From positions 1 to 46,174 of IMG/VR virus record IMGVR_UViG_3300042147_000021: a DNA stretch of 46,174 bases. One strand, given 5' to 3'. Origin of the DNA: a virus. Shown piece after piece: positions 1 through 46,174 of the stretch (position 1 is its first letter; each line of letters begins with the position of its first letter). Position numbers and translations under genes: made by a program. The notes below the pieces were generated by a model. The model was not told the origin of the DNA. It searched no databases and saw only the letters and a list, made by a program, of their open reading frames with translations.

Positions 1-127
1 CGTCTTCCCCTAGCAGCTACCCAGGCATGACGGTCATGACCTGCGACATCCGTGGCGGTGACCGCATTTCGTCGCAAAGCGAAAGCTTGGTGAACCTGGC
101 CTGCACCCGGATTCTGCCGGTACTCCG
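1..127. repeat. 127-bp direct repeat of the window ends (left copy)
   Basis: Bases 1-127 are identical to 46048-46174. A repeat of exactly 127 bp is what a de Bruijn assembler with k=127 leaves when it closes a circle. It lies inside a coding gene whose frame continues across the join. I read it as the sign of a circular or circularly permuted genome, not as a biological terminal repeat. Confidence 0.9.
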
Positions 128-1130
128 CGGCGGCGTATGGCAAGACCCCGAACCTACCCGGGAGATCTCCGCGGCAGTCGGACACATCATCCGTAACGTC
201 GGGTACTCGGACACCGCAGATATCGACCTGGTCGAACTGGATCGCCTTGAGTCGACTCGCTGGACGCCGCGCGGAGACACCTACGACCGCATCGTCATGG
301 ATTCGAAGACCGTTAAGTCGAACCTCCTGGACGCGCTGACTGTCGGCTTCTCAGAACTGACGATCGATCGCGGCCTGCTGGTGCCAGTGCGAGACGAGCC
401 CCGCGGGCCATCGTTCGACCATGTTTACAATCCTCACGTCATGCTTGAACCATTGTCCTACGAGTTCACCATGCCGGATCAGCCGGACGACTTCGACGGC
501 GTGGACGTTGAGTACTACGACCACGTTACGAAGCAAGACGAGACGGTCGAGTGCCGTTTGCCTGGCGACGCCGGAGAGCGAGTCGAGAAGCTGAAGCTTG
601 AAGGCGTCGGTAACCGAACCAAAGCGTGGCAGTGGGGGATGCGTAGACGACGCGGCCAGTTGTACCGCCAGCGGCAGTACAGCTTCAGAACGGAACTGGA
701 CGCGTTGAACAGCGCCTACTTTGACTACGTGGCGCTCGGCGTTGCGACGCCCGGGTACGGGCAGAGTGCGGAAGTCGTCGGGTACACCGCAGGTCCGCCG
801 GTCACACTGGAATCGTCGCAGCCACTCGACTGGTCCGTACCCGGCGTGTACAAAGTCGTGGTGCGCCGTTTAGATGGATCGGCATCGGGACCTTACGATG
901 CGACCCGCGTAGACGACTACACGTTCACGATCCCGACCCTTGACTTCGTGCCGGACTTGTCAGGCAACATCGACACGCCGCCTATCATCCAGTTTGGGCA
1001 TGAATCGACGTGGGCGTTCCCCGCGCTAATCACTGACGTATCGCCAAGCGGAACGCGGACGTGCAGCGTTAAAGCGGTGAACTATGATCCACGGATGTAC
1101 CTGAGCGACGACGCGTTGCCGCCATCCTGA
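1..1130 (+). CDS. Tail-tip / host-specificity J-like protein, C-terminal part
   Basis: This is the 3' part of the gene that begins at 44469. The codon phase is kept across the join (codons start at base 3 here), so the whole protein is 902 aa. It should form the tip of the tail below the tape measure and contact the receptor. The visible C-terminal part has repeated beta-rich stretches typical of fibronectin-like or tip domains, and no enzymatic motif that I recognise. The lysis genes follow after 41 bp, so lysis proteins are probably made from the same late transcript. The family is inferred from position after an NlpC/P60 gene, and from size. Confidence 0.75.
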   Translation, partial: SSPSSYPGMTVMTCDIRGGDRISSQSESLVNLACTRILPVLRGGVWQDPEPTREISAAVGHIIRNVGYSDTADIDLVELDRLESTRWTPRGDTYDRIVMDSKTVKSNLLDALTVGFSELTIDRGLLVPVRDEPRGPSFDHVYNPHVMLEPLSYEFTMPDQPDDFDGVDVEYYDHVTKQDETVECRLPGDAGERVEKLKLEGVGNRTKAWQWGMRRRRGQLYRQRQYSFRTELDALNSAYFDYVALGVATPGYGQSAEVVGYTAGPPVTLESSQPLDWSVPGVYKVVVRRLDGSASGPYDATRVDDYTFTIPTLDFVPDLSGNIDTPPIIQFGHESTWAFPALITDVSPSGTRTCSVKAVNYDPRMYLSDDALPPS

Positions 1131-1171
1131 TCATGCGTGGTATCATCCCTGAAACACACTAGGGGTGGGAT

Positions 1172-1555
1172 ATGCGGGAGCAATGTGAACTTTACGCATA
1201 CCTTTGGGTCTGCGCTCTGCTGGCGGGCGTGAACGGGTACGCGGCGGCCGGTGCGGCTATCGGTTGCTGTTTTTTCCTCGCTGCGCCGAAAGCCACCACG
1301 TTACGGGAACGCTTTCTGCTTTCCGTGTTCTCATACGGTATGGGCTACGGCGGCGGGGTTTACTGGTACGGCGGCGGCCCTCCATTCGATGAACGGGCTT
1401 TATTCGTCGCTGGCGCCGTGGCAGCGCTGATCGCCGTGGTGTTTACAGCACTTGGTTATATGGTTGAGAAAGATGGCCCAGTGCCAGAGTGGATAAAGAC
1501 CATCATCGGTCTGATTCCATTTTTCAAAAGCCGGGGTGGCAACGATGGAGCTTAA
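1172..1555 (+). CDS. Holin-like membrane protein (127 aa)
   Basis: Small protein with about three hydrophobic segments (near residues 8-25, 45-63 and 77-97) and a charged C-terminus ending in KSRGGNDGA. The start is supported by a GGGGTGGG ribosome site just upstream. It opens the lysis cassette: a second membrane protein, a lysozyme-like protein and Rz/Rz1 follow. In such cassettes this position belongs to the holin, which opens the inner membrane to release or trigger the endolysin. The role is inferred from context; there is no diagnostic holin motif. It overlaps the next gene by 11 bp. Confidence 0.6.
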   Translation: MREQCELYAYLWVCALLAGVNGYAAAGAAIGCCFFLAAPKATTLRERFLLSVFSYGMGYGGGVYWYGGGPPFDERALFVAGAVAALIAVVFTALGYMVEKDGPVPEWIKTIIGLIPFFKSRGGNDGA

Positions 1556-1850
1556 CGTTATTCTGCTTTGGGTAGAGTGCGTGATCCACTTTGCCACTTT
1601 CCTAATCTTATGGGTCTACCGCGACCACAGTTCTCGGCAACGCTGGGGCGTCTCTATGTTGGCCGTAGGGATCGCCGCATCTAATGTCGGGCTCTTCACC
1701 CTCATCCTTTTCCACATCGTAAAACCCGGTCCGGCCATGGTTCACGCGTTGCTGATCTTGGCCTTCGGCTGTGTGTTAGGTTTGTTGATCCGGGCGAAAG
1801 GTAACGTGGCGAAGATGATCCCTCCTATCAATACGAGAATGTTTCTATGA
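1545..1850 (+). CDS. Second small membrane protein of the lysis cassette (101 aa)
   Basis: Three predicted membrane segments (about residues 5-22, 36-58 and 66-84) and a basic C-terminal tail. The ATG at 1545 is chosen over the GTG at 1536 because GGGGTGG lies 5-6 bases before the ATG, whereas the GTG has no ribosome site. It may be a second holin, an antiholin or a pinholin-type partner of the preceding protein; the sequence does not decide. It overlaps the next gene by 4 bp (ATGA). Confidence 0.55.
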   Translation: MELNVILLWVECVIHFATFLILWVYRDHSSRQRWGVSMLAVGIAASNVGLFTLILFHIVKPGPAMVHALLILAFGCVLGLLIRAKGNVAKMIPPINTRMFL

Positions 1851-2329
1851 CTCTTAAAGCGGATATCGCGGCGGGTCTCGCGTTGCTACCGGCCAAGATG
1901 AATTCCGAAGACGCTGCGGTGTTGCTTTACGCCACGTCTAGACAGGAGAACCCTCAGCGGCTTCCTCAGCAAGTTGGCGGACCGGCCGTTGGCGATTACC
2001 AGTTCGAAAGGGGCGGTGGCGTTAGAGGCGTAGTGGAGCATTCTGCGGTATCCGAACTGACAAGATCAGTTTGCCGAGCGCGCAAAGTGCAGTGCGATAC
2101 GGGTTCGATCTATCAAGCCCTTAAGACTGACCCAATCATAGCCGCTGCACTAGCCCGTCTTCTCTATTACACCGATCCTAAGCAACTGCCGTATGTCGGT
2201 GATGAACTGACCGCATGGCAACTCTATCTGCGCACTTGGCGCCCGGGTGCTTATGCTCGTCAGCCGGAAGAACTTCGCGCCAAGTGGACTAAGAACTACG
2301 CGGACGCGATGAAAGCGTATGGTCTTTAA
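1847..2329 (+). CDS. Lysozyme-like protein, putative endolysin (160 aa)
   Basis: The N-terminal half has a pattern I recognise from a phage family found beside spanin genes: a helical start, then 'ATSRQEN', 'GGPAVGDYQFE' and 'GGGVRGVVEH', with a later 'YTDPKQLP' and 'YLRTWRPG'. In relatives the glutamate of the QES-type motif (here RQEN) sits in a lysozyme-like fold. It has no signal peptide, so it would need the holin to reach peptidoglycan. It overlaps the holin-like gene upstream and Rz downstream, which is the normal order of a lysis cassette. The activity is inferred. Confidence 0.6.
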   Translation: MTLKADIAAGLALLPAKMNSEDAAVLLYATSRQENPQRLPQQVGGPAVGDYQFERGGGVRGVVEHSAVSELTRSVCRARKVQCDTGSIYQALKTDPIIAAALARLLYYTDPKQLPYVGDELTAWQLYLRTWRPGAYARQPEELRAKWTKNYADAMKAYGL

Positions 2330-2783
2330 CTCCGCTTACGGCTACGCGCTGGCGCTTCTGGTAGGTGCGGGGGGCGCGTGGTACGTCCAGGGGTTGCGCT
2401 GGGAGACGGATGTACAGGAACGCGATCTGGCAACCGCTACGGCGATCAGCGCAAATGTGGGCGCAGTGAACCAACAACTAATCGCGTCGCGCGCACAGAC
2501 AGAAGCCATCCGGCAAACCTTCATCGAGTACAAGGCGGGTAAAGAGAATGAGACGAGTGCTCTTGAGCGGGCTGTTGCTGATGGTTCTAAGCGGCTGCGG
2601 GTCAAAGCCAGTTGTCCAGCGGTGCGCGCCGATGGAACCGTTCCCGGCGGAGCTGTCAGCGGAACCGCAGAACTTGACCCCGCTGTTAGATCGGATTATT
2701 TCGAATTGAAGAAAGGACTCGACCGGCAGTACGCCGAGTTGCAGTTCTGCCGGTCGGAATTGAGGAAGCGGTCAGTTAAGTAA
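2319..2783 (+). CDS. Rz: Rz-like inner-membrane spanin (154 aa)
   Basis: An N-terminal membrane anchor (about residues 5-23) is followed by a long helical periplasmic region. Near the C-terminus lies 'DYFELKKGL', like the 'DYFTLRE' region of lambda Rz. Inner-membrane spanins pair with an outer-membrane lipoprotein and fuse the two membranes at the end of lysis. The partner, Rz1, is nested in the +1 frame (2548-2709). The stop codon overlaps the end of the opposing early operon by 8 bp. Confidence 0.8.
   Translation: MVFNSAYGYALALLVGAGGAWYVQGLRWETDVQERDLATATAISANVGAVNQQLIASRAQTEAIRQTFIEYKAGKENETSALERAVADGSKRLRVKASCPAVRADGTVPGGAVSGTAELDPAVRSDYFELKKGLDRQYAELQFCRSELRKRSVK
2548..2709 (+). CDS. 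Rz1: Rz1-like outer-membrane spanin lipoprotein, nested in Rz (53 aa)
   Basis: This short ORF lies wholly inside Rz in the +1 frame. It starts MRRVLL, has a hydrophobic signal core and an LSGC lipobox with the lipidated cysteine at residue 17. The mature part is proline-containing (KPVV, APMEPFP, EPQNLTP), as in Rz1 proteins. The embedded arrangement is the classical one of lambda. It should be an outer-membrane lipoprotein that joins the C-terminus of Rz across the periplasm. It is below common ORF length limits and easily missed. Confidence 0.85.
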   Translation: MRRVLLSGLLLMVLSGCGSKPVVQRCAPMEPFPAELSAEPQNLTPLLDRIISN

Positions 2784-3162
2784 ATTCTTTCGGAACAGCG
2801 ATCTTGTCCCCGAACTTCGTAGCAACGATTGCTTGACACGCGGCGATTAAAGCGTGATCGCAGGCGTCGGTAGAATACTGATCCCCTCCACCGTAATAGA
2901 TATTCGCGAGCCATCGTTCTGACATTTCCGTACCCTCTCGCCCGTCGTGCGCTTCCGGCGTAAGAGCGACTTGGAAACTCTGAACGAGTGGCCCTCCGAA
3001 GTCCCAGTCAGACGAATAGCATGGTGGGATGTGGTGCCAGCGGTTCGTGTAGCCGTCACTGTTGAAGAACAGCTTCTCTTGATCGTTCAGAACCATAGCG
3101 ACGAGACAATCCAGAAGTCTGCCTCTCAGGTCCGCTGTTTTTACTTCTACCGTTTCACTCAC
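2776..3162 (-). CDS. DUF2591-like early protein (128 aa, GTG start)
   Basis: The opening 'VSETVEVKTADLRGRLLDCLVA' pattern (shown here in pieces: VSETVEVKTA, LRGRLLDCLV) and the later 'WHHIPPCYSSDW' resemble the DUF2591 family of small phage proteins of unknown function. The GTG at 3162 is preferred to the ATG at 3189, because AGGAG lies 7 bases before the GTG and because this start overlaps the upstream stop (GTGAGTGA). It is the last gene of the early operon and its stop overlaps Rz convergently. Confidence 0.6.
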   Translation of the reverse strand: MSETVEVKTADLRGRLLDCLVAMVLNDQEKLFFNSDGYTNRWHHIPPCYSSDWDFGGPLVQSFQVALTPEAHDGREGTEMSERWLANIYYGGGDQYSTDACDHALIAACQAIVATKFGDKIAVPKEFT

Positions 3163-3301
3163 AGTAATACTCCTCTTCCTCAGTTGCATTTTGTGCAGCG
3201 GCTGTCGCCTGGCAGATAACCTGGGCGTCCTGCGTGAAGTACGCGGCCACTGGCACCGGGCCGTTTGCGGTTAGCATGTAGAGCATGGCTAGGATTTTCA
3301 T
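3155..3301 (-). CDS. Small protein with hydrophobic N-terminus (48 aa)
   Basis: ATG at 3301 overlaps the stop of the upstream gene (ATGA), and its own stop overlaps the downstream GTG start. It begins MKILAMLYML, is followed by a neutral stretch with one central cysteine (QVICQA), and ends acidic (EEEEYYCE). The N-terminus could be a weak signal or membrane segment. Function unknown. Coupling on both sides is the main evidence that it is real. Confidence 0.6.
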   Translation of the reverse strand: MKILAMLYMLTANGPVPVAAYFTQDAQVICQATAAAQNATEEEEYYCE

Positions 3302-3501
3302 TGTCTAAGGTTCTCGTCCGGGTCGAATCCAAATTCCCGGCATAGAGCATTCGCAACCCCGGACCCGCAACCGAAAGCGTCACGCACCAAAACCCAACGG
3401 GCAGTGCCGTATTTACTTCGGTACTTGCTAGGTCCTTTTACGTTTCGGACAACACGTTCGATCAGTTCGCGCTCCTTGATTTCAACACCAGATAACATCA
3501 T
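3298..3501 (-). CDS. Small basic hypothetical protein (67 aa)
   Basis: Charged N-terminal helix, then 'KGPSKYRSKYGTARW' and 'GCGSGVANALCREFGFDP'. The second part could form a helix-turn-helix-like unit, but I do not recognise the family. It is coupled to both neighbours through ATGA-type overlaps. Confidence 0.5.
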   Translation of the reverse strand: MMLSGVEIKERELIERVVRNVKGPSKYRSKYGTARWVLVRDAFGCGSGVANALCREFGFDPDENLRQ

Positions 3502-3917
3502 TCCGCTTCACTCCTTTTCGCGGCCCGCACCATGCGAGCGCCGAAGAATTCGACTTTCTCAGCGTTGTATAACGCTTTGTTGTCTGCCTTTACCGCGCCG
3601 CCCATGCGGCCAGTGCAGGTGCGCCAGATCGCTTTAAACGCTTCGCCTTCTGCGAATGTCATCCCGAGCGCTTCGATAATGTCGATGCTCTCGGCGGTGT
3701 AGGGTTTTGAGGTAGGGTCAATGGGATCAGCGACGTGGCATTTGTAGTAGTCGACGCTGCCGCCGGTTTTCTGCTCCGGGCTCTCGGTGCGCGGCCAAGG
3801 CTTATCGGGCTGTATGGTCGCCTTTCTGCGTTTTGACGTATCGCATCCCGGACAGTCCGGCGCCCGGTTAAGCGTTCCACCGTGCCTCGTACACGCCTTA
3901 GTTTTGTCGATCTTCAT
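3498..3917 (-). CDS. DUF3310-like protein with N-terminal Cys/His motif (139 aa)
   Basis: An N-terminal Cys/His patch (ACTRHGG, CPGC) is followed by a linker. Then 'VDYYKCHV', 'SIDIIEALGM' and 'FAEGEAFKAIWR' match the pattern of DUF3310 (nucleotide-kinase-like or SaV-like) proteins that accompany phage replication genes. The family assignment is from memory of the pattern; the biochemical role is not established. It overlaps the helicase gene upstream by 4 bp. Confidence 0.55.
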   Translation of the reverse strand: MKIDKTKACTRHGGTLNRAPDCPGCDTSKRRKATIQPDKPWPRTESPEQKTGGSVDYYKCHVADPIDPTSKPYTAESIDIIEALGMTFAEGEAFKAIWRTCTGRMGGAVKADNKALYNAEKVEFFGARMVRAAKRSEAE

Positions 3918-6387: not shown

Positions 6388-6416
6388 AGCTTATGCAAGA
6401 TTTGACTTGTAGTCAA
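6388..6416 (-). promoter_or_regulatory. Putative sigma-70 promoter P6.4
   Basis: On the minus strand TTGACT (6411-6416) and TAAGCT (6388-6393) are 17 bases apart. It lies at the end of the polymerase gene and before the 79-aa gene with its strong ribosome site. The -35 box overlaps the polymerase stop codon region. Confidence 0.5.
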
Positions 6417-7405
6417 CCTTTCCGGTAGCGATATGCTTCGAAGCCGGCTGCGGCGAGCGGTAGGCCTTCTGTCCAGTCGCAGCCGGCAGACATCAGTTCG
6501 GCTAGGTGCTCGTGGTTATAGGATGGATCGTCCGGCGCTTCGCTGATGATCTCGTCGTGCACGGTCAAGACGATTTCGTAACCGGCTTTCTCGATTGAGG
6601 GGAGGGAATACGCCAGTACGTCACGCGCGACTGCCTGGCAAATATTTTCAACTAGCCGGCCCCCGTATGTGCGTAGCCGCTCCCACTTGCGAGTGAACTG
6701 GTTAACGCCCATGAACGTAATGCCGCCGTCGTCTTCCACGCGGGGGTTCGGGTAGCACAGGTAGCGGCCGCTCGGCAGCATGATACGGAGCCACGCACCG
6801 TCGCGGCGGATCTTGTGCATACGACAGGTAAGCGTTTGGCCGGGGTTGTTGATCGCACGTCGCACAACGTCTTCGAGTTCCTTCCACCAAGCAGCGATAG
6901 CGGGGTTAGTCTCGCGCCACAGGCGCTTGAAGCTATCACAGACGATGAATGCGCGATCACTAAGTCCGAACTGACTCTTACCCTGGCCGAGCTGCCATTC
7001 CAGAAAGCTAGCGGCGTCGTCGCGTGTGGCGGACGGAATAACCTCCCATGCTTTTTCGGCCATGTCTTCCAGGTCGATGCGATAAGTAAGTGCTCCGGTT
7101 ATATAGGCACCTACACCACCCCCGTATCCGAGCATAAGCTCCAAAACTTTTCCGATGGCCCTTTCGTGCTTGCCTACATCCTCGGGACGGATACCGAAAG
7201 CTTTCGCGTAGGCGAGCTTATACATGTCGTGGCCGTCGCGCAGATCGAAATCCAGGAACGCTTCAAGCTTCCAGGCTTCACCCGCGAGCCAGGCCAGTAC
7301 GCGGTTCTCAATACCTGCCAAGTCGGCTACTACGAATTTCTTGCCGGGCGACGCGATGAAAACCCCGCGTATCGCACTTGAGCACTTGTCCATGACGTTG
7401 CTCAT
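6413..7405 (-). CDS. Family A DNA polymerase, C-terminal (palm/fingers) half (330 aa)
   Basis: The catalytic half of a PolA-type replicative polymerase. Motif A VVADLAGIE lies at residues 25-33 (metal-binding Asp28). Motif B is R82-K86-Y94 within 'ERAIGKVLELMLGYGGG', and motif C VHDE is at about 282-285. It lacks exonuclease and template/primer-binding parts, which are encoded separately at 7938-9011. Its ATG at 7405 overlaps the HNH gene stop (ATGA) and has AGGAG eight bases upstream. The two halves join cleanly at one point, so the gene was split by insertion of the HNH gene. Confidence 0.9.
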   Translation of the reverse strand: MSNVMDKCSSAIRGVFIASPGKKFVVADLAGIENRVLAWLAGEAWKLEAFLDFDLRDGHDMYKLAYAKAFGIRPEDVGKHERAIGKVLELMLGYGGGVGAYITGALTYRIDLEDMAEKAWEVIPSATRDDAASFLEWQLGQGKSQFGLSDRAFIVCDSFKRLWRETNPAIAAWWKELEDVVRRAINNPGQTLTCRMHKIRRDGAWLRIMLPSGRYLCYPNPRVEDDGGITFMGVNQFTRKWERLRTYGGRLVENICQAVARDVLAYSLPSIEKAGYEIVLTVHDEIISEAPDDPSYNHEHLAELMSAGCDWTEGLPLAAAGFEAYRYRKG

Positions 7406-7941
7406 ACGCCGAGCTCCTGACGAAGATCTTTCAAATGCACACCGTGGTTGACGTAAGCGCCGTGAATACTTTCGCGAAAAGCACGAACTGCCGCGGCTGC
7501 CTCCTCGCGCGTATCGAATACGCCTAGGTTATGCTGCACTTTGCGCAGGCCACACCGGGCTCGCCACTTTCCGCTAGGTGCATGCCAACTTACCCCTTTA
7601 AAACCTGACGTGTTGTCAAACGGGGTTTGCATATTGCAGAGGTTTTGGGACTGACTGCAGGCGCGCAGATTCTCGATCCGGTTGTTCTGCTTGTCGCCGT
7701 CAACGTGGTCGATTACCTCCGGCCATTCGTTGTAGTGCCAGAACCAAACCAATCGGTGATAGAGGTATTTTTTAACGTCGGCCCCCACTGCCGCGTAACC
7801 GTTAGGGCCGAGGTGGCGCGGCCGATCGCCTTTTCTGTTAAGCCCCAAACCGCGAACGTTGCAACGCCGAACGAGTTCCCCGGTATCGGCGTCATAGTCG
7901 AAAAGCTCAAGCAGCTTTTCGTGGGTGATTGGATCTTTCAA
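7402..7941 (-). CDS. HNH homing-type endonuclease with AP2 domain (179 aa)
   Basis: HNH_3-type core: HRLVWF near residue 62, DH at 78-79, then asparagines in 'KQNNRIENLR' (about 85-93). Residues 108-170 look like an AP2 DNA-binding domain (NTSGFKGVSW, GKWRARC, GVFDTREEAAAAV). It starts at TTG 7941, which overlaps the stop of the polymerase N-terminal half (TTGA); GGAGGA is 5-6 bases upstream. It ends overlapping the start of the C-terminal half. It thus sits exactly between two polymerase halves as a free-standing, translationally coupled gene. Confidence 0.9.
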   Translation of the reverse strand: MKDPITHEKLLELFDYDADTGELVRRCNVRGLGLNRKGDRPRHLGPNGYAAVGADVKKYLYHRLVWFWHYNEWPEVIDHVDGDKQNNRIENLRACSQSQNLCNMQTPFDNTSGFKGVSWHAPSGKWRARCGLRKVQHNLGVFDTREEAAAAVRAFRESIHGAYVNHGVHLKDLRQELGV

Positions 7942-9011
7942 AGCAAATCCTCCGCATCGTTGAGTAGCTCCTCAATTGCATAATCGACGCCTTCAGGGCT
8001 AAGCGTACCCCTTGGCAGGTTCTGAGGCTGAATTAGGCGCCCTGCCCATCTGCCTGTACGCAACGCCCCGCAGAACGCCAGCAGGCCGCGTAGGCGGCCG
8101 TCAGAGCTCACGCCGTTGATAACCCGGCTGTACTTGCTGTTGGAAGACTTGCTGGACTGCTGACGGACGCGTAGCAAATCCTTTAGCTCTTCGGGCATGT
8201 CCTCGTTTTCCAGCGCCTTCTCCAGGGTGCTGCCCTTCAAGTCCTTCAGCGCTATGCCGTAAGCTTCCAGAATGTGCTCCAGCATCCTGTCGCGCTGGTT
8301 GGCGCTACTAACTGCTCCATCCGTCATTTCGTTGGCCTGCCGGGATAACTCTTTCTGCGCTCGATCGGAAGCTCGAATGGCGGCGTGCGCCAAGTCGAGA
8401 TCCATTAGTACACCGCGCTCATTGATGCGCTGGTCGAGGTGCCACAACTCCTTCTCTGCGCCACGGTAATTCCACCGTGGCAGCTTCTTGTAGATCTCGC
8501 GCATGGCCTCGATATCAAGGCGCCCGTACTCGCGAAATGCCTCCCACTCGACAGGATGCGTTTCGCGAGTAGCGCGCCGGAGTATCTGATTCTTTGGCCG
8601 CGGCTTGCAGAACAACTGGATCAGCGCCTTGCCGGCCTTGTCCTTCGCCTTGTCCTTCGCGATCCCCAGGATGTCGCCAAGCTTCTCCAAAGCCCCCGGC
8701 AACGAATGCGCCATAGCGCAGACCATCGTATCGAACGTCTCCTCTACTGGAATCGTGAAGCCGATCGCGTGAGTCATGACGGTACGGTCAAACGCGCTGT
8801 TCTGGATGACTTTCTCGTAAGACGGATCGGCCAGTAGCTCCATCAGATCCGAAACGTCTTCATCCCCATCGCGAATCTCTACAGGCCCTTCGCCGACCGC
8901 CCACTGCCACATGATGATCTCGGCGCCTTCTGCATAACGGTGCGTCCCGTTGTTGATCGGCGTTTCGCAGAAGGTTTCCGTGTCCAGGAAAATGCATTTG
9001 TCGAGGTTCAT
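7938..9011 (-). CDS. Family A DNA polymerase, N-terminal (exonuclease/thumb) half (357 aa)
   Basis: Begins MNLDKCIFLDTET, with exonuclease residues D10 and E12. It continues through a DEDD-type 3'-5' exonuclease and the thumb, up to RTGRWAGRLIQPQNLPR at about 318-334, the conserved primer-template binding motif. It stops about 20 residues later, just before motif A, which is in the next polymerase ORF. The ATG at 9011 overlaps the upstream stop; the in-frame extension to 9080 belongs to the neighbour. An intact relative would be about 690 aa. Confidence 0.9.
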   Translation of the reverse strand: MNLDKCIFLDTETFCETPINNGTHRYAEGAEIIMWQWAVGEGPVEIRDGDEDVSDLMELLADPSYEKVIQNSAFDRTVMTHAIGFTIPVEETFDTMVCAMAHSLPGALEKLGDILGIAKDKAKDKAGKALIQLFCKPRPKNQILRRATRETHPVEWEAFREYGRLDIEAMREIYKKLPRWNYRGAEKELWHLDQRINERGVLMDLDLAHAAIRASDRAQKELSRQANEMTDGAVSSANQRDRMLEHILEAYGIALKDLKGSTLEKALENEDMPEELKDLLRVRQQSSKSSNSKYSRVINGVSSDGRLRGLLAFCGALRTGRWAGRLIQPQNLPRGTLSPEGVDYAIEELLNDAEDLL

Positions 9012-9208
9012 CAGCAATGCGCCTGTCTTTCGCTTGCCCACACGACTATTCCGGTAACCGTGTCGACGATATGCGCCCAATCGCCACCTGTTAGGAGCTT
9101 ATCCGCTTGCTCGCGAGCATCGGCTAGGTTGGTAAAACTATCTTGAAAATCTCGCCATCCGCCGCCGGCGTAACAGACGTACCCGTAGAAAACTAAAAAC
9201 CTTCGCAT
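9011..9208 (-). CDS. Small hypothetical protein (65 aa)
   Basis: Starts MRRFLVFYGYVCYAGGGW and contains 'LADAREQADKL' and 'VDTVTGIVVW', a layout common in small early phage proteins of unknown function. AAGGAG upstream of 9208 decides the start. Confidence 0.55.
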   Translation of the reverse strand: MRRFLVFYGYVCYAGGGWRDFQDSFTNLADAREQADKLLTGGDWAHIVDTVTGIVVWASERQAHC

Positions 9209-9218
9209 ATTCGTCTCC

Positions 9219-9362
9219 TTAATTAATACGTTGGGCGATCGCTTTGATAAGCGCTGTGCGTTCCCAAGATACATGGCGGGTTATAGCCTTCCACGATAAG
9301 CCCTCGCATCGCAGCTCATAGGCGAAAGCCAAGTCAGCAAGTGGAATATTAGGCCTCGCCAT
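9219..9362 (-). CDS. Small helix-turn-helix-like protein (47 aa)
   Basis: Starts MARPNIPLADLAFAYELR and continues 'EGLSWKAITRHVSWERTAL', which reads like a recognition-helix unit of a tiny HTH protein. GGAGG lies 9 bases before ATG 9362. It overlaps the upstream gene by 14 bp, and its TAA adjoins the ribosome site of the next gene. It could be a DNA-binding regulator; that is inference from the helix pattern. Confidence 0.6.
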   Translation of the reverse strand: MARPNIPLADLAFAYELRCEGLSWKAITRHVSWERTALIKAIAQRIN

Positions 9363-9573
9363 ACCCGTAGGCCTCCAAAGCTTTATCCAACCTGGGCGAC
9401 CATTGGCGAGCTTGGTGCGCCGCTTCCAGTAGCTCTTCCAGTAGTGCCTTACGCCGTGCGTGATTCGCCTTGGAGCGCTCGTTGTGGCACTTGATGCAGT
9501 TATTGCTAAGCAGGTATCGCCGGCCTGCTAGCTCGGGGTGCTTGGCGCACACTTGGCCGTACTTGGACTTCAT
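9349..9573 (-). CDS. Cys/His-rich small protein, HNH-like zinc motif (74 aa)
   Basis: The pattern VCAKHPEL-x-GRRY ... NNCIKCHNERSK places Cys/His pairs as in a recurrent phage protein related to HNH zinc fingers. The C-terminal half is a charged helix. The ATG at 9573 overlaps the micropeptide stop (ATGA). No complete nuclease active site is visible. Confidence 0.6.
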   Translation of the reverse strand: MKSKYGQVCAKHPELAGRRYLLSNNCIKCHNERSKANHARRKALLEELLEAAHQARQWSPRLDKALEAYGYGEA

Positions 9574-9641
9574 GATGCTAACCAGTACATGGTCGGCGCC
9601 CATACGAAGATCAGGCAGAAGAGAACGCATTTGGTGATCAT
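9570..9641 (-). CDS. Membrane micropeptide (23 aa)
   Basis: A 23-codon ORF starting MITKCVLFCLIFVW and ending WLAS: almost entirely hydrophobic, enough for one membrane span. Its ATG overlaps the stop of the upstream gene (ATGA) and its stop overlaps the start of the downstream gene (ATGA). A GGGGTG stretch lies eight bases upstream. Function unknown. Similar coupled micropeptides occur at 14066-14128 and 15228-15296. Confidence 0.55.
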   Translation of the reverse strand: MITKCVLFCLIFVWAPTMYWLAS

Positions 9642-9850
9642 GAAAAGCACCCCGGCGGAACGCCGTCCGCGATTGCCTGGTTAACCTTCTCGCAGGCCGT
9701 GTCCAGTGTCTTGGCAAACGTGGCCGGTACGCTGAGAACGACGTTACCGCGCAGGTACTCGATGCTTACCGGGACATGTAGGTCGACCAGTTGGGCGAGC
9801 ACATGGCGCGCGGCGGATTGAGGGACGGTGCTGTTTGCGAAAGTGGTCAT
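9638..9850 (-). CDS. Hypothetical protein (70 aa)
   Basis: Starts MTTFANSTVPQSAARHVL, a helix-strand small protein with no motif I can name. AGGAAG is placed well before ATG 9850. Coupled to the micropeptide downstream. Confidence 0.5.
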   Translation of the reverse strand: MTTFANSTVPQSAARHVLAQLVDLHVPVSIEYLRGNVVLSVPATFAKTLDTACEKVNQAIADGVPPGCFS

Positions 9851-9862
9851 TCTTGACTTCCT

Positions 9863-10048
9863 CTATTCGTGGAGTGCGTTGTCTTCTACCGCGGCGACGA
9901 ATGCTTCGAACTCGCGCTGCATCTCTTTAAACTTGTCGCCGTCTTCACGACAGTAATACGTGGTGAGCATCGATTTTATTTCGCCTTTAGCCCTTTCCCA
10001 AGCCATGGCGCGCATAGCGGGTAGGATTCGCGAACTATGATCTGACAT
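9863..10048 (-). CDS. Small helical hypothetical protein (61 aa)
   Basis: Starts MSDHSSRILPAMRAMAW and is mostly charged helix (EDGDKFKEMQREFEAFV). GGAGAAGGG upstream fixes the start at 10048. No recognisable domain. Confidence 0.5.
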   Translation of the reverse strand: MSDHSSRILPAMRAMAWERAKGEIKSMLTTYYCREDGDKFKEMQREFEAFVAAVEDNALHE

Positions 10049-10059
10049 TTCCCTTCTCC

Positions 10060-10203
10060 TCAACGATAGAAAATTGGACAGTAGCACCCGTGGTCGCCGA
10101 GCATGTAGAACTGCTCGGTAACGTAGAAAGTGGCAACGCGTCGTGCGTAGCCGGCGGACATATCGACGGTTTGGATTCCGCTGTGAAGGCGACGGTTATT
10201 CAT
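10060..10203 (-). CDS. Small hypothetical protein with C-terminal CYC (47 aa)
   Basis: Starts MNNRRLHSGIQTVD and ends in an aromatic segment with GCYCP. The ATG at 10203 overlaps the upstream stop (ATGA), and its stop adjoins the ribosome site of the next gene. Too short for usual gene callers. Confidence 0.5.
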   Translation of the reverse strand: MNNRRLHSGIQTVDMSAGYARRVATFYVTEQFYMLGDHGCYCPIFYR

Positions 10204-10328
10204 TTGAACGAGCCCCAAAACTTCCAAGCAGCACGGTGGAACTCCACCGCATCACGATCTACAGCGATCAGCGCCAAGCCGTACTGGTGACGGTGGTAAG
10301 CAGCGTTTGCCGAAGTGGTAGCGTTCAT
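10200..10328 (-). CDS. Small hypothetical protein (42 aa), first gene behind P10.4
   Basis: Starts MNATTSANAAYHRHQYGLA and ends AAWKFWGSFK. A strong GGGAGAAGGGG ribosome site lies before ATG 10328. It overlaps the next gene by ATGA. Function unknown. Confidence 0.55.
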   Translation of the reverse strand: MNATTSANAAYHRHQYGLALIAVDRDAVEFHRAAWKFWGSFK

Positions 10329-13527: not shown

Positions 13528-13758
13528 CTATTTACCGGCGCGGAGATCCGCCAGTTTACGCGTCAGGTCGAGCGAAGCGCGTTTTGCTGCGGAATGCTCT
13601 TTAACGCATTCGCGGATCTGAACCCATTCGTGGTTCTCGTACTTCCGCCCGGATGAATCGTGCGAAACTTCTTTTCGCTTGGCGCACAGTGCTTCCAGGG
13701 CTTTCTTTGTGCGCATGATCTCGATCAGCGCTTCGTCAATCGTTTGGTCTTTGATCAC
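13528..13758 (-). CDS. Paralogue A of a small protein pair (76 aa, GTG start)
   Basis: Starts (GTG) IKDQTIDEALIEIMRT and ends HSAAKRASLDLTRKLADL plus RAGK. Both ends are almost identical to the protein at 14125-14406, but the middle (about residues 25-53) is charged and lacks its zinc motif. AAGGAG lies before GTG 13758. The start overlaps the end of the upstream gene. The two ends probably form one helical unit. Function unknown. Confidence 0.7.
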   Translation of the reverse strand: MIKDQTIDEALIEIMRTKKALEALCAKRKEVSHDSSGRKYENHEWVQIRECVKEHSAAKRASLDLTRKLADLRAGK

Positions 13759-14069
13759 TCTGTTTCTCCTTTCCAGTGGTTGCAGTACCAACCGTTCGAT
13801 GGGCTGGCGCTGCCTTTGCGGTGGGGTGCGCCGTACAGCTCCCAGGGGAAGCCGGAGCAGTAGCACCCTAGTTGTTTGTGTTCGACCCTCATCCGGTAAC
13901 GGTCTACCCGGTACGTGCCGCCGCAGTCGCAATGCACGATCGGCTCTATACCTTTTGCTCGTGCTTCCCGGCACGCTTTGCACTTGCAGCCGTTGCGCAT
14001 GTTTTCGGGTAGCTGCGTAAGCGTTCTGCGGCCATCGCAAGACCGGCAGCGGCATGGGTAGCGGTTCAC
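13755..14069 (-). CDS. Cysteine-rich multi-zinc-ribbon protein (104 aa)
   Basis: From GTG 14069 it reads NRYPCRCRSCDG, then GCKCKACREA, HCDCGGTYR and GCYCSG: at least four CxC/CxxC pairs, enough for two or more zinc sites. The GTG overlaps the micropeptide stop (GTGA). A TTG at 14123 would add 18 residues but would run through the micropeptide. Possibly a nucleic-acid- or protein-binding adaptor; no enzyme motif. Confidence 0.55.
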   Translation of the reverse strand: MNRYPCRCRSCDGRRTLTQLPENMRNGCKCKACREARAKGIEPIVHCDCGGTYRVDRYRMRVEHKQLGCYCSGFPWELYGAPHRKGSASPSNGWYCNHWKGETE

Positions 14070-14128
14070 GATGAACAAGCGACCATTAGGAGGATCACTA
14101 CGAAAATCCCTATCATTAGCCAAATCAT
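14066..14128 (-). CDS. Membrane micropeptide with lipobox-like end (20 aa)
   Basis: A 20-codon ORF starting MIWLMIGIFVVI and ending MVACSS: a single hydrophobic span with a cysteine three residues from the end in a lipobox-like setting. ATG 14128 overlaps the upstream stop (ATGA) and its stop overlaps the downstream GTG (GTGA). GAGGG lies 8-9 bases upstream. Confidence 0.5.
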   Translation of the reverse strand: MIWLMIGIFVVILLMVACSS

Positions 14129-14406
14129 CGCCCGGCCCTCAGATCAGCTAATTTTCGCGTCAGGTCGAGTGAAGCGCGCTTGGCGGCTGAATGCTCAACA
14201 ACTGGGTTCATGCACAGCGTTAAAAGTCCCCCACAGTGGAGGCACTGGTCGCCAAGTCGGAACGATCTCGGCTTCCAAGCTGCTGAGCAAGAACTGTTAG
14301 GGCAGCGGCGATCGCAGGTCTTACGGAACTTGCGCAACGCTTCCAGGGCTTTCTTGGTACGCATGATCTCGATCAGCGCCTCGTCAATCGTTTGGTCTTT
14401 AATCAT
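14125..14406 (-). CDS. Paralogue B of the small protein pair, with central zinc motif (93 aa)
   Basis: The first 24 residues (MIKDQTIDEALIEIMRTKKA and on) and the last 22 match the protein at 13528-13758. The middle instead holds CDRRCPNSSC and CLHCGG, a probable zinc ribbon at about residues 31-62. The DNA of the shared ends differs by few, mostly silent changes, so duplication or conversion is recent. Overlaps both neighbours by 4 bp. Confidence 0.7.
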   Translation of the reverse strand: MIKDQTIDEALIEIMRTKKALEALRKFRKTCDRRCPNSSCSAAWKPRSFRLGDQCLHCGGLLTLCMNPVVEHSAAKRASLDLTRKLADLRAGR

Positions 14407-22151: not shown

Positions 22152-22332
22152 AAAATCCATTTCACGATAGGGAAACCTAATCAGAACCAGGAAAACCGAT
22201 AGCGGGGGGCTATCAGAAGGCCAGAATACGACCGGATGGCTGATCGCGCCGACCTCTTCGAGAGGGAATAAAACCTCCATGCTTTGTTACCCGTGTTAGC
22301 CTAGTCTCGTGAGTAACAACAGGACAGACGCA

Positions 22333-22806
22333 ATGCTTAACGAAACCCAAGAACTTTTCTTCAAGGCGACCCTGCGTGGCGAAAAGCCGGAACAGGCTGC
22401 TATCAGCGCCGGGCTCAGCGCGAAGACCGCAAAGGCGGCAGGGCACCGAATGCGTAAACACCCTGCAATCGTGGCAGCACTAGCAGCTATCGGTATTGGT
22501 ACTAAGGCGGGAACCGCCAGTAAACCAGAAGCTTCGGGCGACCATTCAGAGCCTGATATCGTGACGGTAGAAATACCTGAGACGGACGACCCAAAGGTTT
22601 TCCTGGCCGCGCTTATGAATTGCCCGAAGGCCGGAGTGAAGGCCCGACTGGAAGCGGCCAAAGCGCTGCTGCCTTTTGAGCATGCGAAGATGGGGGAGAA
22701 AGGCAAGAAGGAAAAACTAACCGACGCGGCGAAAGGTGCGTCGGCCGGCGGAAGATTCGCCCTGGCCGCACCGCCAAAGCTTGTCGTGAACAACACCGAG
22801 AAGTAG
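22333..22806 (+). CDS. terS: Terminase small subunit (157 aa)
   Basis: N-terminal 'LNETQELFFKATLRGEKPEQAAISAGLSAKTA' region (quoted in parts: FFKATLRGEKPEQAA, ISAGLSAKTA) is the helix-turn-helix of small terminases, followed by 'RMRKHPAIVAAL'. The C-terminal half is charged. It recognises phage DNA and loads the large subunit. ATG 22333 is preferred to GTG 22309 because AGGA lies about 10 bases upstream. Confidence 0.75.
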   Translation: MLNETQELFFKATLRGEKPEQAAISAGLSAKTAKAAGHRMRKHPAIVAALAAIGIGTKAGTASKPEASGDHSEPDIVTVEIPETDDPKVFLAALMNCPKAGVKARLEAAKALLPFEHAKMGEKGKKEKLTDAAKGASAGGRFALAAPPKLVVNNTEK

Positions 22807-22813
22807 AATGACG

Positions 22814-22849
22814 AAACCCCGCGGTGCGCTAACACCTGCGGGGTTTCTT
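22814..22849 (+). terminator. Intrinsic terminator between terS and the second HNH gene
   Basis: AAACCCCGC-GGTG, 6-base loop, CACC-T-GCGGGGTTT followed by CTT. A 13-bp stem with one bulge directly after terS. It would reduce readthrough into the HNH and terL genes. The symmetric A/T ends could work in both directions. Confidence 0.7.
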
Positions 22850-22873
22850 ACCGATCCGCATCTGAGGTGCTTC

Positions 22874-23782
22874 ATGGCTGCAGCGAATTCTACACAACAT
22901 ATTATCCCCGGCGAACTAAAAGTTTGCACAAAGTGCTCCGAAGCGAAACCGCGCGGGGAATTCCACATCGGCAAGGAATACCCTGACGGGCGTAAGGCGT
23001 CATGCAAAGTGTGTATCCAGGCTCAACGACGCGCCAAGTATCACAGTCAGCGAGAGGACGAGATAGAGAAGCGTCGGGCCAGGAAAGCGACTGAAGAGTG
23101 GCAAGCTTTAAAACCCGAGCGTAAAGCGGCAGCGAAGGTTCGCTTGAAGAAACGAATCGCTGAAACCATGCCGGACGATAAGTGCTGCACTTCCTGCGCC
23201 AGCATACTCCCCGCCACGACCGCGTATTTTCACCGCGCCCCCACCGGCAGCTTCGGTTTAACGGCGACTTGCGTAGACTGCGTACGCATCGCTTACCAGA
23301 AGAGAGCAGCACAAGACAGGGACAAGATTAGAGAGACCGCCAGGGCTTCTTACGCTAGAAATGCCCCGCGTAAACTTGCTCAGCAGAGAATAAAAAGGCG
23401 TACGGACCCAGCATTCGCTATTCACATGAGAGTTTCTAGCTCCGTGCGAAATAGCCTCGGCAGATCAAGATTAGAAACTTCGTGGATTAACCTTCTAGAT
23501 TTTAGCGCAGCGGAATTGCACGCCCATCTTGAGCGGCAATTCACCGAAGGCATGACGTGGGAACTCTTCATGGCCGGAGAAATAGAGATAGATCACGTAA
23601 TCCCTGTGTCATTCTTCCGCCCTAGCGCAGTTGACTCTGTAGAGTTCCGCATGTGCTGGAACCTGAAAAACCTGCAACCGCTTTGGCGTTTAGATAACCG
23701 CCTTAAGCGCGATACTCTCCCGGCTAACTTCACTGAGCTGTGGAACGAACTCTATTACGAGGCGAACCGATATGCAGCTTGA
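22874..23782 (+). CDS. HNH endonuclease with zinc-finger pairs, between terS and terL (302 aa)
   Basis: N-terminal zinc pairs (C18, C21 in VCTKC and C44, C47 in CKVC), a basic helix, a second set (CCTSC, CVDC), and a C-terminal HNH core 'IEIDHVIPVSFF' with 'WNLKNLQPLWRLDNRLKRD'. This looks like a mobile homing-type nuclease. ATG 22874 has GAGGTG upstream and lies after the terminator; an in-frame start at 22808 would run through the terminator hairpin. Its end overlaps the terL start by 11 bp. Confidence 0.8.
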   Translation: MAAANSTQHIIPGELKVCTKCSEAKPRGEFHIGKEYPDGRKASCKVCIQAQRRAKYHSQREDEIEKRRARKATEEWQALKPERKAAAKVRLKKRIAETMPDDKCCTSCASILPATTAYFHRAPTGSFGLTATCVDCVRIAYQKRAAQDRDKIRETARASYARNAPRKLAQQRIKRRTDPAFAIHMRVSSSVRNSLGRSRLETSWINLLDFSAAELHAHLERQFTEGMTWELFMAGEIEIDHVIPVSFFRPSAVDSVEFRMCWNLKNLQPLWRLDNRLKRDTLPANFTELWNELYYEANRYAA

Positions 23783-44472: not shown

Positions 44473-46174
44473 TCGAGATTTACGCCAGCCGCTTGTCGGA
44501 TGAAGGCAAAGAGACCTACAAGATCCGTAAGCCGCAGACGATGGTCGAGTGGCTGTACCGCCACGGTATCTCCCGCGATACGGACTTGGGCAAGCTGGCG
44601 ATAAGCCTTTACGTGAACGGCGAACGCCTTCTGCCGCGCCAGTGGAAGACAACCCGAATCTCAGCCGAAGACAAAGTAGAGATCTACCGAGAGCCGAAGG
44701 GCACCGACCCATTCACTATCACCTTCGCGCTGATCTTCGCGGCCACTGCCGCTATCGCGTTGCTGACGCCGAAGATCCCCGGCATCAGCGCATCGCGATC
44801 AACCGGAGGTAATCCACTTGATCAGGGAAGCAGTAAGGGCAACAAGGTCAAGATTAACGACGTGCGGCCGGAGCTTTTCGGCTACAACCCACAGCGCTTC
44901 CCGGATTACTTAATCCCCCCACGGGCGTACTTCGCTAGCCTTCGCGAGCCCCGCACTGAGATGTGCCTGGGTGTCGGCCAGGGTTCATACCAGATCGACC
45001 TTGAAGACGTTAAAACAGGACAGACCCCACTTCTGGCCCTTGGCGCGGATGCCTCCTTCTCGATCCACGCGCCCGGCACCGACATTTCCTCAGAACCGGC
45101 CCACCTTTTCTGGTATACCGCGCCGGAAGTGGGCGCCAGCAACACTGGGGCCGCTGGCCTGGAGCTGACGGTCGAAACTACCTTGACCGCATCTGCCACG
45201 GCATCCGTTTTTAACTTTAACGGGGATGTCGTCAGTATTCCTGTGGGCTCAGGATCCTTCCCCGCTGACTGGGTAGCAGGGACGCTGATCAACCCGGTAG
45301 CGCCGTACAGCTTCACCGTTGCCGATGGTACGGGCACAGGGGGACGTGACGTAATCAACGGGCCTATCGCCCAGTTCAACTTCGTGATAGGCGATGAGAT
45401 CCAGATCATCGGTGACAACGAAGGGTTTTATGTCGTAAGCGACGTGACGGCTACCACGTTGGAACTTGACTATGATGGTGGGGCGCCCGGCATAGGTTTG
45501 GTGATCGGCCCGGTCGTTATGGGGATGTCCTACCGCGGCTTCCGGTTCCGCATCCTCAGCTACGCCGCTCAAGCGTTGCAGGTTAAACGTCTGACTGCGG
45601 GGGGCGTGGATGACAACGCATGGCCGGGATGGGACAGCCTTTCGTCCAACGTGGCGCAAGTCCGCTTGGATAGCTCTAACCTGCAGGGCGGTTATCGCGG
45701 CCCGTTCCCGGCGTGTCCTGAAGGTGAAGTCGTTACCGATATCGAGTTCGATATGTTCTTCCCGAGCGGCATTGTTGGCCTTGGATCACAAGGCGAGTAC
45801 ATCTACATACAGGCGAACTACTCTTTCGAGTATCGCGACATGGCGATCGGCGGCGCATGGACGGCGGCGACGTTCTTCACGATTAACAATTCGCTGGACG
45901 CGGTAGGGACTACGCATCGAGTGGCGTTGCCGTATTCGATGCGTCCTGAATGTCGGATGAAGAAACTGAACATTCCTCAGGGCAGTCTAAGGCCGGAGGA
46001 GGTCCACGACGTTACGATGTGGCTACGGCTTAAAGGTTTGATCGCCACGTCTTCCCCTAGCAGCTACCCAGGCATGACGGTCATGACCTGCGACATCCGT
46101 GGCGGTGACCGCATTTCGTCGCAAAGCGAAAGCTTGGTGAACCTGGCCTGCACCCGGATTCTGCCGGTACTCCG
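44469..46174 (+). CDS. Tail-tip J-like protein, N-terminal part (runs into position 1)
   Basis: Starts MIEIYASRLSDEG, with a ubiquitin-like first part ('VEWLYRHGISRDTDLGKL'), a hydrophobic segment near residues 79-100 ('FTITFALIFAATAAIALL', which resembles lambda I), and then beta-rich domains ('GTGTGGRDVINGPIAQFN'). It thus looks like an I-like part fused to a J-like body. Together with bases 1-1130 the protein has 902 aa. It completes the tail tip and presumably contacts the receptor with the spikes. Confidence 0.75.
   Translation, partial: MIEIYASRLSDEGKETYKIRKPQTMVEWLYRHGISRDTDLGKLAISLYVNGERLLPRQWKTTRISAEDKVEIYREPKGTDPFTITFALIFAATAAIALLTPKIPGISASRSTGGNPLDQGSSKGNKVKINDVRPELFGYNPQRFPDYLIPPRAYFASLREPRTEMCLGVGQGSYQIDLEDVKTGQTPLLALGADASFSIHAPGTDISSEPAHLFWYTAPEVGASNTGAAGLELTVETTLTASATASVFNFNGDVVSIPVGSGSFPADWVAGTLINPVAPYSFTVADGTGTGGRDVINGPIAQFNFVIGDEIQIIGDNEGFYVVSDVTATTLELDYDGGAPGIGLVIGPVVMGMSYRGFRFRILSYAAQALQVKRLTAGGVDDNAWPGWDSLSSNVAQVRLDSSNLQGGYRGPFPACPEGEVVTDIEFDMFFPSGIVGLGSQGEYIYIQANYSFEYRDMAIGGAWTAATFFTINNSLDAVGTTHRVALPYSMRPECRMKKLNIPQGSLRPEEVHDVTMWLRLKGLIATSSPSSYPGMTVMTCDIRGGDRISSQSESLVNLACTRILPVL
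46048..46174. repeat. 127-bp direct repeat of the window ends (right copy)
   Basis: Second copy of the end repeat, identical to bases 1-127. Removing one copy gives a 46047-bp circle and restores one uninterrupted tail-tip gene. Confidence 0.9.

Follow-up and report, generated by a model that had tools for sequence, protein, structure and literature searches.

In the stretch of viral DNA analysed here (IMG/VR record IMGVR_UViG_3300042147_000021; 46,174 nucleotides, hereafter the window), a family A DNA polymerase is encoded in two open reading frames (ORFs), here named PolN and PolC, and a gene for an HNH-AP2 endonuclease lies exactly at the joint between them. We consider it highly probable that this is an old, lineage-wide two-chain polymerase, split at a flexible loop, and that the HNH gene is a later occupant of the joint. 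It appears that this essential enzyme has settled into two stable parts, with exchangeable cargo lodged between their genes.

Gene organization of the polymerase in the window

The original prediction had described three ORFs that overlap through the stop-start sequences TTGA and ATGA, each downstream ORF with a ribosome site of its own, and all of this was borne out by the sequence, on the minus strand (Table 1): a GGAGG Shine-Dalgarno sequence stands 6 nt upstream of the TTG of the HNH gene, a start that is retained in L068, L071 and L094, and AGGAG stands 8 nt upstream of the ATG of PolC. PolN matched Pfam DNA_pol_A_exo1 (5.9e-09) and positions 670-989 of phrog_17, and PolC matched DNA_pol_A (6e-13) and positions 993-1232 of the same profile. 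The middle ORF, in which the HNH_3 domain and a conserved HNH core are present, matched HNH_3 (2.4e-13), AP2 (1.6e-06) and phrog_99 (1.4e-61). More specifically, PolN carries the 3'-5' exonuclease, the thumb and the RTGRW/QPQN stretch, and PolC the palm and fingers with motifs A (D28), B and C (HDE 283-285, PolC numbering); the break lies, as predicted, between RTGRW/QPQN and motif A. The predicted sharing of the active site by both chains did not hold, as all three catalytic motifs are on PolC and the catalytic carboxylates are unshared. Together, the two pieces show the marks of a family A DNA polymerase: a Klenow fold, the domains for 3'-5' exonuclease and polymerase A, and the three motifs.

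Table 1. Features of the window and its relatives, with the genes found at the polymerase joint
Feature	Sequence	Position	Strand	Description
PolN	window	9011..7938	-	357 aa, ATG 9011 to stop 7938, C-terminal end EDLL-stop
HNH-AP2 endonuclease gene	window	7941..7402	-	179 aa, TTG 7941 to stop 7402; in the polymerase joint
PolC	window	7405..6413	-	330 aa, ATG 7405 to stop 6413
TTGA overlap	window	7941..7938	-	HNH start TTG and PolN stop TGA (joint 5' side)
ATGA overlap	window	7405..7402	-	HNH stop TGA and PolC start ATG (joint 3' side)
Variable boundaries near polymerase	window	9012-10324; 5315-5806		gene content differs among close relatives
Terminal repeat	window	1-127; 46048-46174		127-bp direct repeat
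Neighbouring ORF pair	window	13528-13800; 14125-14406	-	same start (IKDQTIDEALIEIMRTKKALEAL) and same end (EHSAAKRASLDLTRKLADLRAG), different middles
HNH-like ORF	window	22808-23782	+	324 aa, many CxxC pairs; HNH-like by eye
ORF preceding HNH-like ORF	window	22309-22806		
NUMOD4-HNH insertion locus	L100	5001-6564		same polymerase point
Second PolC split	L070	3125-3322		upstream of motif C
Second PolC split	L078	8622-8819		upstream of motif C
Second PolC split	L081	5014-5211		upstream of motif C
Second PolC split	L084	7701-7898		upstream of motif C
Second PolC split	L086	5388-5585		upstream of motif C
Apparent intein in PolC	L063	6071-7885		
Apparent intein in PolC	L091	4737-6548		
Apparent intein in PolC	L078, L089			
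Apparent intein in PolC	L172 (APSE-1 P45)	918-3899		
Joint cargo: N6/N4 methyltransferase PF01555/phrog_67	L058, L062, L085, L076, L078			L076 and L078 by visible similarity, the others scanned
Joint cargo: phrog_757 methyltransferase	L070, L081, L084, L089, L091, L074			L070 scanned, the others by visible similarity
Joint cargo: overlapping C5-methyltransferase pair phrog_363 + phrog_1008	L077, L075, L079			L077 both scanned, L075 partly, L079 by similarity
Joint cargo: NUMOD4-HNH	L066, L073			L066 scanned, L073 69% identical
Joint cargo: HNH-AP2	window, L068, L071, L074, L094			
Joint cargo: phrog_839	L067			
Joint cargo: phrog_12600	L087, L080			L087 scanned, L080 by similarity
Joint cargo: 40-aa ORF	L088			
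Joint cargo: 33-aa ORF	L096			

Alignment of both halves with an intact homologue, Bbp42 of phage BPP-1, covers both pieces with 0 residues missing (ADLL-FANVMEL against EDLL-stop and MSNVMDK), and the phrog_17 profile runs on across the joint, from 989 in PolN to 993 in PolC. Bbp42 and P45 of APSE-1, which belong to the same polymerase subfamily (56-59% and 48-57% identity, respectively), are both intact at this point.

Elsewhere in the window, the direct repeat at the two ends makes it probable that the contig represents a phage genome that is complete or circularly permuted. Two neighbouring minus-strand ORFs that share their start and end are a local duplication with a swapped core. The 324-aa ORF with CxxC pairs, for which there was no Pfam match, stands between another ORF and the gene for the terminase large subunit.

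A split shared by the whole clade, and its history

To collect relatives, viral contigs were scanned with PolN, with PolC and with an alignment; one genome scan returned 25 loci in bacterial genomes. The members of the clade are metagenomic contigs; the phage collection yielded no isolate of it, its best matches being about 59% identical over the full length. We defined a close set of 36 sequences, window included, in which PolN is at least 60% identical. The split falls at exactly PolN 357 / PolC 1 in 34 of the 36, an insert being present in 25 of them and absent from nine (L061, L063, L064, L072, L082, L083, L086, L093 and L095), while L059 and L060 have a single ORF. Among loci less than 60% identical, about 109 are one intact ORF and four score as split, namely L108 and L111, which break at other points, L158, whose PolC match extends only to residue 82, and L100. 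A sequencing error or a chance break was rejected, as the same break is found in 34 related sequences from many independent contigs.

Phylogenetic analysis placed the split sequences in one clade (100/100 in the PolN tree, 98/83 in the PolC tree), with the fused L059 and L060 nested inside it in both trees. The minimum number of split/fused changes was 3 for PolN and 4 for PolC, with 23-25 cassette changes. The fused joint, EDLIGGPTVMD, is 2 residues longer than that of the intact outgroups (ADLLFANVMEL), which, together with the nesting, points to a secondary re-fusion in these two phages. Six phages (the window, L058, L059, L060, L061 and L067) that share 94% or higher identity in both halves, with the window and among themselves, display five states of the joint: HNH gene, methyltransferase, empty, 99-aa gene and, twice, fused.

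The HNH gene had been predicted to be what splits the polymerase. It does sit at the exact joint, but its role as the cause is not supported in the window's lineage, since L061, the nearest relative (98%/97% identical), and eight others are split without an insert, and other genes occupy the same point. A direct split of an intact gene, made by an HNH homing endonuclease that entered it within the window's own lineage, would be in keeping with the outgroup L100, where a NUMOD4-HNH gene, 51% identical to the cassette of L066, lies at the same point of the polymerase while sibling phages are intact; it would also fit the selection acting on the HNH-AP2 genes of the joint (dN/dS 0.07-0.10). The tree disfavours it, however, as the whole clade is split and the HNH gene would have to have been replaced or precisely lost in each of L061, L058 and L067, and we judge this origin improbable. 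Breakage of the gene by an endonuclease was found only in L100, whose insertion is independent of the split in the window's lineage. Because it occurred in an otherwise intact lineage, it indicates that an HNH gene can make such a split in one step. The split would predate the HNH gene now in the window's joint; a site-specific insertion of an HNH gene is the probable source of the first split, although this could instead have arisen by a point change followed by capture of cargo.

The insert-free relatives raise a further possibility, a programmed -1 frameshift at ATGA that yields a fused polymerase and leaves the two-chain form as a by-product that is tolerated. In all insert-free cases the frame of PolC is -1 relative to that of PolN, and in most of them a polymerase of native length would result from such a shift (one residue more in L061). 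However, no canonical slippery heptamer was seen by eye at the joint, and a frameshift is impossible across the inserts of the cassette phages, which measure 100-1248 nt and whose flanking halves are equally conserved in the close group; in the window, it is ruled out by the 535-nt gene in between. We therefore regard a frameshift as quite improbable.

Group I introns bearing HNH genes are frequent in phage polymerases (PMC3428280 for Pf-WMP3; PMC2988022, a review), and by this precedent the HNH ORF might lie inside such an intron, or another self-splicing element, from which a continuous polymerase is made. Against this, no Rfam intron match was found in the window region (E up to 5), nor at gathering score in 14 insert-bearing loci; the insert is wholly coding, with a 4-base overlap at each end, and the insert-free relatives are split all the same. 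An intron is thus very unlikely, with a slight chance left to unrecognised splicing in the cassette-bearing window. A split intein was rejected as well, since PolN ends straight in EDLL and PolC starts with MSNVMD, with no intein or other extra sequence at the joint. These results support the predicted reading of two polypeptides made with neither intron nor intein.

Conservation and inferred assembly of the two halves

Within the close group, dN/dS of PolN and PolC was 0.019-0.055 at dS 0.6-1.0, alike in split and fused phages (by half, 0.02-0.055 for PolN and 0.02-0.05 for PolC). Both halves are under strong purifying selection, whether split or fused. A polymerase in pieces might be taken for a pseudogene, a broken and non-functional gene in a phage that another enzyme replicates, but the low ratios in both halves at synonymous distances near saturation, the catalytic motifs, which the window retains and the family conserves, and a split common to 34 related sequences leave this reading hardly any probability.

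For the L060 protein, which is fused in nature, AlphaFold gave a model (pLDDT 92, pTM 0.90) whose best Foldseek match was Klenow (1d8y, E 9e-18). In it, residues 351-361 form a loop that contains the joint and connects helices 339-350 and 362-373; the pLDDT of the block 351-360 is 80. In profile alignments, the joint falls within about 30 extra residues that are absent from Klenow and Aquifex Pol I. The split would thus be placed in a flexible loop between two helices, and no residue would be lost because this segment is one that Klenow-type polymerases lack. Two chains meeting at the joint loop could, judging from the model, plausibly form the same enzyme. PolN and then PolC would be translated in turn through stop-start coupling, and the exonuclease and thumb of the one would assemble non-covalently with the palm, fingers and all catalytic motifs of the other. 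Purifying selection on both halves and natural re-fusion are indirect indications of this assembly, and the split polymerase is presumably catalytically functional.

In some relatives PolC is itself divided a second time, upstream of motif C (Table 1; also L063, L091 and L088). PolC1 ends in MPRIEAWRP-stop, and a 65-aa ORF (METVKQFDQGFEIVVTVHDEI..) with its own GAGGA site bears motif C; among the five sequences of L070, L078, L081, L084 and L086, its dN was 0.007-0.013 against a dS of 0.4-0.8. The separate motif C ORF means either a three-chain polymerase or a frameshift. Apparent inteins were observed in PolC at two sites other than the joint (..MELA/CLGGDT..AHN/CGYAGG and ..AEN/CIAEGT..VHN/C), and in L063, L091 and APSE-1 the apparent intein contains a second ORF, HNH-like and in another frame.

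Exchangeable cargo at the joint and comparison with known systems

Cargo is exchanged at the joint: at least nine kinds of insert are found among the 25 carriers, mostly DNA methyltransferases and HNH genes, part of them assigned by visible similarity to a scanned member (Table 1). The insert genes are unrelated to one another and are packed with overlaps of a few bases. Many of them finish with a similar GGAGAYCTCGTATGA-like border (..DLV-stop), like the end of PolN itself, and two related phage methyltransferases located elsewhere have different ends; the shared borders suggest that cargo is exchanged by recombination within them. Four HNH-AP2 carriers (L068, L071, L074 and L094) form one group in the PolC tree (100/96) and stand in two places in the PolN tree, an indirect hint that the HNH gene of the joint may be capable of homing. 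The PolN tree and the PolC tree disagree (AU p 0.004 and 1e-44, for groups picked after the trees were seen). Recombination does not always break exactly at the joint, as breakpoints were also found within PolN, for example where the window and L085 switch near residue 240. Nor is the joint a unique hotspot, since the gene content of close relatives varies at several further boundaries in this region as well (for example, the two listed in Table 1). It behaves like any other gene boundary of a mosaic genome and is not a uniquely active site. As such an ordinary boundary, it would take in and exchange homing endonucleases, DNA methyltransferases and small unknown genes. More tentatively, and with somewhat less than even confidence, we propose an obligate multi-chain polymerase, of two chains here and three in several relatives, whose joint would give a docking place to exchangeable genes, mostly of anti-restriction (methyltransferase) type, that are expressed together with replication and travel with the polymerase.

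Split phage polymerases are already known, namely gp43A/B of T4-like phages and the PolA of MEP401. MEP401/MEP402 and related Methylophilales (OM43) phages (PMC10580990; OP830906) have a split family A polymerase. As in the window, two ORFs separated by a small one encode the MEP401 enzyme, and its split also falls between the TGR..QN stretch and motif A, but at a different residue; the insert encodes a 77-aa unknown protein, and the ORFs are 1 nt apart, whereas those of the window overlap. The authors chose neither an intron nor a split, and the passages considered here mention neither empty joints nor swapped cargo nor re-fusion. Two genes, gp43A and gp43B, encode the polymerase of the T4-like Aeromonas phages 25 and 44RR (PMC2988022, citing Petrov et al. 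2010); they are separated by a homing endonuclease in 25 and an untranslated stretch in 44RR; the halves co-purify and are active, and the review notes that the endonuclease may have entered an already split gp43. Unlike the window's, that polymerase belongs to family B, its endonuclease is of the Seg type, and the split point is another. The same review cites phage Aeh1, whose nrdA is divided by mobE (Friedrich et al. 2007, via PMC2988022) and in which an inserted homing endonuclease gene made an essential enzyme a functional two-chain protein; this is a ribonucleotide reductase, and it is described there as one insertion, not as a lineage-wide split with exchangeable cargo. No description of a split PolA with exchangeable cargo was found in the open-licence literature. 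The exchangeable-cargo joint, the re-fusion and the three-piece forms are new details, and the window's clade is set apart from known splits by its lineage-wide character, the swapping of methyltransferases and HNH genes, re-fusion, and an independent insertion at the same site.

In conclusion, this family offers a dense natural series of polymerases (intact, split and empty, split around at least nine kinds of cargo, re-fused, three-piece), which shows the path of an essential replication enzyme from one chain to several and back. Close relatives differ by single changes, making the series testable at the bench. A broken gene is usually attributed to a selfish endonuclease; here the break outlasts the endonuclease and becomes a stable boundary that is used by other genes.
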